From Verrucomicrobia bacterium ADurb.Bin070 (GTDB lineage Bacteria; Verrucomicrobiota; Kiritimatiellia; RFP12; UBA1067), in assembly GCA_002071025.1 (NCBI GenBank), contig MWEJ01000008.1:1-34410 (forward strand): a stretch of DNA of 34,410 nucleotides. The letters run 5' to 3'. The translations under genes were made by a program, and so were the position numbers. The first letter of the stretch is position 1, and every line of letters starts with the position of its first letter. The notes under the pieces are model-generated. The model saw only the letters and a list, made by a program, of their open reading frames with translations. It was not told the DNA's origin and made no database searches. Shown here piece after piece: positions 14,500 to 20,681 of this stretch.

Positions 14500-14547
14500 C
14501 CGGCGGAGCGTGTCGGTCCGTCGCCGGCGCTTACGGACAGCCTTTTT

Positions 14548-14567
14548 CGCGGACGGGGCCGTCCGCG
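14548..14567. terminator. Perfect 9-bp stem hairpin after the permease gene
   Basis: CGCGGACGG, GG, CCGTCCGCG is a perfect inverted repeat 49 bp after the permease stop codon. It could end the permease transcript, but no T-run follows it on the plus strand, so an intrinsic-terminator call is weak. Confidence 0.4.
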
Positions 14568-14661
14568 CCCCCAGGCTCGCGCATTTCATTCCTCTAGAAA
14601 CGCATGATCTCCGCGCATCCTGGCCCCCAATCGATTACCCAGCCGATTACGGCAGAGAAGA

Positions 14662-16114: not shown

Positions 16115-16142
16115 GAATCCACTTGTCATGATAAGTGGATTC
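16115..16142. promoter_or_regulatory. Palindromic operator, copy 1
   Basis: A 28-bp palindrome with left arm GAATCCACTTG, core TCATGA and right arm TAAGTGGATTC; only one base pair breaks the symmetry. It is the most extended copy of a family whose centres are 65, 65 and 68 bp apart upstream of the regulator gene. Confidence 0.75.
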
Positions 16143-16181
16143 CCGTCGACGGTCTGACCATGCGGTTAAGGCCGGTGTGAG

Positions 16182-16205
16182 ATCCACATGTCATGACAAG
16201 TGGAT
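16182..16205. promoter_or_regulatory. Palindromic operator, copy 2
   Basis: 24 bp: arm ATCCACATG, core TCATGA, arm CAAGTGGAT. One mismatch between arms. Its centre is exactly 65 bp after that of copy 1. Confidence 0.75.
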
Positions 16206-16246
16206 TTCTATGGCGGGACAGTTCAAGGAGTCGAGGCAGGTGCAAT

Positions 16247-16270
16247 ATCCACATGTCATGACAAGTGGAT
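16247..16270. promoter_or_regulatory. Palindromic operator, copy 3
   Basis: Identical over 24 bp to copy 2 (ATCCACATG, TCATGA, CAAGTGGAT). Its centre is exactly 65 bp after copy 2 and it ends 15 bp before the -35 hexamer of the regulator promoter. Confidence 0.75.
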
Positions 16271-16285
16271 TAACAGCGATGTCGT

Positions 16286-16314
16286 TTGACGGTCTGACGC
16301 GGGCGTGATATGCT
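16286..16314 (+). promoter_or_regulatory. Extended -10 promoter of the double winged-helix regulator
   Basis: TTGACG (16286-16291), 17 bp, TATGCT (16309-16314), with TGA just before the -10 giving an extended -10 element. Transcription would start near 16321, five nt before the ATG at 16326. The promoter lies between operator copies 3 and 4, which suits autoregulation. Confidence 0.6.
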
Positions 16315-16338
16315 GTTCTCATCTCATGAGAAGTGAAT
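16315..16338. promoter_or_regulatory. Degenerate palindromic operator, copy 4, over the start codon
   Basis: Core TCATGA with right arm GAAGTGAAT and left arm GTTCTCATC (six of nine symmetric positions). Its centre is 68 bp from copy 3. The ATG inside the core is the predicted start codon of the regulator, so occupancy would block both transcription start and initiation. Confidence 0.5.
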
Positions 16339-16907
16339 GGGCCATCTATCATCCGACCGTGTGGAGGACGTGCCGCGCGCTGATGAATGAGCGCCGATTG
16401 CGGTGCTTGGCTGCCGTGTTGGACAAGCCGGGAATTGCCGTCAAGGAGGTCGCCGCAGAGACGGGGTTGCCCCAGAACCAAGCCAGCATTAATTTGCGTA
16501 TGCTTCAGGCGCGGGGCTTGATCACCGCCCGGCGTCACGGAAAGTGGCTTCGATATGATCCAGAGCCGGACCCGCTGGTTGAACATGCCAATGCCATGTT
16601 GAAGGCCGTCCGACGCGAATGTGCCGCAGGTGAGTGTGCCTTGTCCCGGATCTGCCGGACGCTGCGCGCGTTCACGCATGCGCGGCGGCTGACGATTCTG
16701 CACGTTTTGGCGCGCCACCCGGATTCAACCGCGGAGACCATCGTGGCGATGACAAGGATCAGCCAGCCTGCGGTCTGCCGGCACCTGACGACGTTGAGAC
16801 GGTCGGGAGTGGTTGGGTTGACGCGGGAGGGCGCTTGGCGATTCACGGTGCCACGGAAACAGTCGGCGCTGGCCCGTGCGCTGCTTGCGCTCATCGACAC
16901 CCGGTGA
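16326..16907 (+). CDS. ArsR-like transcriptional regulator with two winged-helix domains
   Basis: 193 residues from the ATG at 16326. There is no ribosome site, but the promoter predicts an almost leaderless transcript starting near 16321. Two similar halves each contain a winged helix-turn-helix: residues ~15-80 (recognition helix around 'LPQNQASINLRMLQARGL', wing 'ARRHGKWLRY') and ~108-175 (recognition helix around 'ISQPAVCRHLTTLRRSGVV', wing 'LTREGAWRF'). Both read as ArsR/SmtB-type folds. The classical metal-site motif ELCVCDL is absent. A single chain with two such folds could act as an intramolecular dimer, fitting a near-symmetric 24-bp site. Its regulator role is inferred from fold and from the surrounding operators; the ligand is unknown. 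Confidence 0.75.
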   Translation: MRSEWAIYHPTVWRTCRALMNERRLRCLAAVLDKPGIAVKEVAAETGLPQNQASINLRMLQARGLITARRHGKWLRYDPEPDPLVEHANAMLKAVRRECAAGECALSRICRTLRAFTHARRLTILHVLARHPDSTAETIVAMTRISQPAVCRHLTTLRRSGVVGLTREGAWRFTVPRKQSALARALLALIDTR

Positions 16908-16916
16908 TCGCCGCAA

Positions 16917-16940
16917 ATCCATTTTTCATGATACGTGAAT
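16917..16940. promoter_or_regulatory. Palindromic operator, copy 5, between regulator and nfo
   Basis: Arm ATCCATTTT, core TCATGA, arm TACGTGAAT; eight of twelve positions are symmetric. It lies 10 bp after the regulator stop and ~80 bp before nfo, so nfo may belong to the same regulon. Another GGTCTGAC (16966-16973) follows it. Confidence 0.5.
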
Positions 16941-20609: not shown

Positions 20610-20618
20610 CAACTGCCG

Positions 20619-20681
20619 GTTTGTGGAGTGCGGGATCTTGCTCCCGTTTTCCAAAGCGGCGGCAAGCCGCCGCACTCCAAA
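20619..20681. repeat. Compound palindromic intergenic repeat
   Basis: The outer arms TGGAGTGCGG (left) and CCGCACTCCA (right) are inverted copies. Inside are two hairpins: CGGGA/TCCCG and a perfect GCGGCGGC-AA-GCCGCCGC. The unit ends two bases before the ribosome site of the fucose gene. Repeats of this style are familiar to me from Kiritimatiellota/Verrucomicrobiota intergenic regions and are often mis-translated as 'SGGKPPHSKWRR'; that link is from memory. It may act as an mRNA-processing or attenuating element between the two genes. Confidence 0.7.

Follow-up and report, generated by a model that had tools for sequence, protein, structure and literature searches.

ArsR repressors typically regulate their own genes from an inverted repeat over the promoter, and sensing of metals or of redox state is common among their relatives. 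REP and REPIN palindromes are widespread among bacteria, and a transposase is the partner best described for them. A REPIN consists of two inverted REPs set a fixed distance apart (in P. fluorescens, 71 and 110 bp), with a less conserved spacer between them; REPINs are spread at random over extragenic space and are tied to specific RAYT transposases (PMC3116915). The locus described here lies in a window of 34,410 nucleotides (the whole stretch of DNA that was analysed) and centres on a gene for a protein with two ArsR domains. This protein appears to act as an ArsR-like autorepressor at its own gene, and its palindromes resemble REPINs elsewhere. We compared it with both kinds of system.

As in the REP/REPIN–RAYT systems (PMC2817692, PMC3116915, PMC3733652), short palindromes are dispersed through extragenic space. 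Like REPINs, they occur as doublets at fixed spacing with poorly conserved spacers, there are several palindrome subtypes per genome, each tied to one gene, and the gene is flanked on both sides by its palindrome. Unlike those systems, the locus has as its partner protein a tandem ArsR of the winged-helix type, which does not match Y1/HUH transposases, the palindromes are near-perfect dyads of 22–28 bp, and the copies are far fewer (about 5–45). A GTAG or CGTC tag at the palindrome end was not noticed in the aligned copies read. Because the partner lacks a transposase signature, the locus was not filed as a REP–RAYT system, despite the matching layout.

The likeness to ArsR/SmtB repressors (SmtB, HlyU, BigR, PagR and AzuR, PMC8790569) is the ArsR fold in each half of the chain. 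The differences are that the 193-aa chain carries two ArsR domains rather than one, that no specific metal-sensor family or equivalog of NCBIfam reached its cut-off, that operator-like repeats are dispersed, and that each half has a strong family-specific signature (PTLWRTCR in the first, TAFTHPRR in the second). The C-terminal half weakly matches the small autorepressing SdpR-type ArsR protein (NF033789), but the score was 42.8 against a cut-off of 100 and no paired immunity or signal gene was seen. A limited search of the openly accessible literature found no prior description. The reading we prefer, at a probability of roughly two in three, is that this tandem-ArsR protein represses its own gene and that its operator belongs to a REP-like family of repeats.

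The tandem ArsR gene and its palindromes

The features of the locus are as follows.

16117–16140, no strand: palindrome copy 1 (ATCCACTTGTCATGATAAGTGGAT), also present as solitary copies elsewhere in the genome
16182–16205, no strand: palindrome copy 2; one such unit is absent from a 98%-identical orthologous locus
16247–16270, no strand: palindrome copy 3, centred at about −62 relative to the predicted transcription start
16286–16314, + strand: predicted promoter, TTGACG (16286–16291), 17-nt spacer, TATGCT (16309–16314); its score was reached in 0 of 200 shuffles
16315–16338, no strand: palindrome copy 4, presumed autoregulatory operator over the predicted transcription start and the ATG
16326–16907, + strand: tandem ArsR-type gene, 193 aa, with recognition helices at residues 50–62 and 147–159
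16917–16940, no strand: palindrome copy 5, right after the stop codon

The five 24-bp copies (size also given as 22–24 bp) surround a single small regulator gene, as a preliminary description made from the sequence had reported. Their positions were confirmed, and none is expected by chance: allowing up to three mismatches, the pattern gave nine strand-matches, compared with 0.00 in 100 dinucleotide shuffles. Successive starts are 65, 65, 68 and 602 bp apart, reproducing the distances given earlier for the first four copies. In copies 1–3, 10 of the 11 arm positions pair, compared with 9 of 11 in copy 4; the strong copies do lie upstream and a weak one covers the start codon. Copies 4 and 5 are degenerate and deviate from the consensus at up to three positions. 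The regulator start codon (ATG, 16326–16328) falls within the core of copy 4, and copy 5 starts 10 bp beyond the regulator stop (16907). A relative with 57% identity (L131) has a perfect palindrome at the position equivalent to copy 4.

That the chain contains two ArsR-like folds was borne out by Pfam, NCBIfam, a PDB profile search and AlphaFold, which agree on two winged-helix domains. The AlphaFold two-domain model has a pLDDT of 93.7 and a pTM of 0.87, NF033788 is matched in two stretches of the chain with 92.1 bits (cut-off 55), and the PDB profile search returned SmtB and HlyU. With Foldseek, single halves matched ArsR structures (TM up to 0.80, to PagR), and no full-length tandem match was found among PDB structures. 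Only winged helices were seen in the chain, with no transposase signature by Pfam, NCBIfam, PHROGs or AlphaFold and no sensor domain by Pfam or AlphaFold. Matches to a defence library (CARF/Csa3) were set aside as generic winged-helix similarity, and a phage or plasmid origin was rejected because there was no full-length match. The regulator is flanked by a prmC-like gene and by one for a TIM barrel of the xylose-isomerase type, similar to endonuclease IV.

Family members and the geometry of their promoters

The gene belongs to a family of tandem-ArsR DNA-binding proteins of the Verrucomicrobiota, which at E up to 1e-20 occurs in 27 of the phylum's 289 genomes and reaches ten copies in a single genome. 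A scan of genome contigs gave 35 named relatives, mostly in Kiritimatiellae, Lentisphaerae and Verrucomicrobia assemblies, and their neighbouring genes are mostly different. A palindrome with at least 9 of 11 positions paired, close to the gene start or stop, was present at 31 of the 35, where ∼0.1 is expected per locus; the other four had none by this measure. It was also present at 20 of 24 further loci with a recognised family gene, a set that includes the window's own locus again and a re-fetched locus from G011. In nearly every member a palindrome lies over the promoter or start codon, often with a second copy just past the stop (L131, L135, L139, L141, L144, L149, L163 and others).

The general form of the palindrome is NNCACACYTNNNNARGTGTGNN; in the window's subfamily, the core is TCATGA. 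Core and outer bases vary among family members with the palindromic symmetry kept, and most relatives carry a palindrome that differs from the window's. Exact matches to the NNCACACYTNNNNARGTGTGNN form were found in 14 of the 145 genomes of the order, and 9 of these 14 have a strong family hit (E up to 1e-20), compared with 3 of the other 131 (P = 7e-9).

The predicted transcription start of the regulator, at ∼16321, would leave a 5-nt leader before the ATG. In the window and in L130, L131, L135, L137, L138 and L066, the palindrome begins exactly 1 nt past the −10 box, is preceded by a TTG-box, a 17-nt spacer and the −10 box, and is centred at +6. These seven members represent six independent loci, since L130 and the window's locus are near-identical orthologs. 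Another arrangement is seen in L144, L147, L151, L156, L161, L162, L163 and possibly L149: a TTGAC-like box precedes the palindrome, and the ATG stands at or close to the palindrome's other end. Because the promoter–palindrome geometry is fixed while the palindrome sequence changes, the palindrome is best read as an autoregulatory operator; in the window, it overlaps the gene's own promoter or start. The association proposed in the preliminary description was upheld, both by this fixed position across differing palindromes and by the co-occurrence of gene and palindrome among relatives and across genomes. Most probably, then, the palindrome belongs to the regulator and controls it. Each family protein would recognise its own ∼22–28 bp palindrome, and the position of this site over the promoter and start codon suggests that binding represses the gene's own transcription, with copy 4 as the presumed operator in the window.

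The window's genome holds a second family member, L066 (G000 C53). In its counterpart in G078 (L227, contig C255) the gene is missing past its start and the operator persists with mismatches.

Dispersed palindromes, doublets and arrays

The regulator locus had been described as self-contained, a view that did not survive, as at least five further solitary palindromes lie in intergenic DNA on other contigs of the same genome. The dispersed copies there are single, and the five have no common flanks beyond about 28 bp, which does not point to copying in that genome. Some relatives have 27–45 dispersed palindromes per genome. The well-assembled genome G196 has 45 sites. Most of its dispersed clusters are doublets, whose spacing is characteristic of the subtype: 100 bp for one (four cases), and mostly 85–88 bp (five cases) and 77–79 bp (three cases) for two others. 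Three regulators in this genome carry exactly the three doublet subtypes, one to one. In G073, the equivalent structures are arrays, with 28 copies in units of ∼169 bp and ∼123 bp, and the two unit types correspond to the upstream regions of two paralogous regulators, one each.

In the manner of REPs and REPINs, the palindromes would have come to populate intergenic DNA singly, in doublets and in arrays, with one protein per subtype. A bolder and more tentative version, which is possible but which we would not favour, is a REP-like system without a transposase, in which the tandem-ArsR proteins are the dedicated partners of the doublets and subtype-specific binding maintains, spaces or even helps to spread the repeats. 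With each subtype of this Verrucomicrobiota repeat family tied to a DNA-binding protein that lacks a catalytic domain, one can test whether binding by a protein is enough to keep or spread such repeats.

An ordinary small regulon, with the protein as transcription factor, the dispersed palindromes as operators of its target genes and the array as strong control of its own promoter, is unlikely. The sites are few in the window's genome and intergenic, and a promoter-like box lies within about 30 bp of some of them (C5, C315). A −10-like box at operator distance was found near dispersed sites in 11 of 116 tests at P up to 0.02, where 2.3 are expected, so a few dispersed sites may be true operators. 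G093 has kept intact the site upstream of a glycosidase gene, within surrounding DNA of about 88% identity, which supports some function of the site; the regulator is reduced to a remnant in that (incomplete) assembly. However, among the 72 dispersed sites or clusters classified in all genomes read, 40 lie in tandem, 21 in convergent and 11 in divergent gaps, against a background of 121, 41 and 53, respectively (home-made gene calls), and promoters are therefore not favoured. In two species, an orthologous site is placed between the 3′ ends of convergent genes, and a coherent set of target functions was not seen. Operators are also not expected as fixed-spacing doublets or as copies of gene flanks. 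At C159 of G011, both regulator flanks and both palindromes are present and the gene is missing, and two other loci of this genome copy the regulator's 3′ end.

The spacers of the G196 doublets (L309–L335) are unrelated in sequence with exact spacing kept, and have 25–57% GC, mostly below 45%, in a genome of 67% GC. Doublet spacing and AT-rich spacers would be explained if the palindromes were sites of chromosome architecture, bridged or wrapped by the protein and functionally like matS or parS. Dispersal without gene-orientation bias fits this idea, and centromere-binding winged-helix proteins such as AspA (5k5q, 4rs8) are among the Foldseek matches of the regulator. Nevertheless, the several subtypes, the up to ten paralogues per genome, the patchy distribution across the phylum and the loss of the gene in close relatives make such a role decidedly unlikely.

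Other explanations for individual sites were tried and dropped. The palindromes could not be treated as synteny breakpoints, since synteny is poor everywhere in these genomes, and precise excision was rejected because G078 lacks one palindrome through a 98-bp indel with no exact palindrome boundary. The copies at C42 and probably C177 are ordinary terminator-like hairpins (C42 has a compensatory change in G078) and were removed from the set. A search with Rfam found no noncoding RNAs in the gaps.

Palindromes of different subtypes lie 59 and 47 nt past the ribF stop codon in two genera (L123 and L089). Other dispersed repeats were seen along the way. A ∼66-bp intergenic repeat at 20616–20681 of the window, just past a glycoside hydrolase gene, has dozens of copies in G078 and G093, and a second intergenic family (window 14532–14640) has many copies in G078. 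A hairpin repeat of ∼29 bp (GGGCGGTCTC...GAGACCGCC) at about 2930–2960 of L123 (G000 contig C1) also occurs dozens of times in G078 and G093.

DNA recognition and the spacing of the array

The two half-sites of a palindrome are identical and the two recognition helices of a chain differ, so that two chains per palindrome is the simpler arrangement. Over 27 protein–site pairs, the N-terminal recognition helix covaries with core bases 1–4 (partial r = 0.19, P = 0.006) and the C-terminal one with bases 10–12 (partial r = 0.15, P = 0.022); examples are ASQYLR with TTTGCAAA and NQASINLR with TCATGA. With many comparisons made and relatedness as a confounder, this covariation is a lead only. A homodimer would probably bind the palindrome, placing the N-terminal helix of each chain close to the centre and the C-terminal one on the outer arm. 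The earlier proposal that one molecule fills one palindrome is less likely, given identical half-sites and differing helices that seem to track different parts of the half-site. The family offers many natural protein–site pairs for working out how a two-headed ArsR protein reads DNA.

The 65-bp spacing had been taken as six helical turns. The orthologous locus in G078 has two upstream palindrome copies compared with three in the window, and spacers 1 and 2 of the window are alike in register (23 of about 42 bases, P = 0.002); the regularity thus appears to stem, at least in part, from tandem duplication of a 65-bp unit, which would account for the extra upstream copies. Likewise, the four copies of L147 follow one another at 81, 81 and 80 bp, and the spacers between them are clearly alike. 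Spacings in other members are about 81, 113–118, 123, 160 or 169 bp, and helical phasing was rejected because these vary and are not multiples of the helical turn. On contig C33 of G156 (71879–72586), three palindromes lie 345 bp apart, one of them within a family gene.

The preliminary description had combined these features into a stand-alone ligand-responsive switch with one protein per palindrome and cooperative stacking, which we consider improbable. Strong sites are arrayed upstream of a weak operator, and metal or redox sensing would not be unusual for an ArsR relative; against this, nothing in a chain of just two winged helices points to a ligand, copy number and spacing differ between relatives, and palindromes are found throughout genomes. 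What stands of that description is that the palindrome belongs to the regulator and probably controls it; the self-contained ligand switch and the helical spacing do not, and the larger pattern is of more interest than the array.

It is very improbable that the palindromes act as RNA hairpins, either as terminators or by masking the start codon, since although the palindrome includes the start codon and, in some members, also the ribosome-binding site, the symmetry reaches the centre with no loop in many copies, the apparent arm covariation within a genome is nearly gone once copies are split by core type, and copies 1–3 lie upstream of the promoter.
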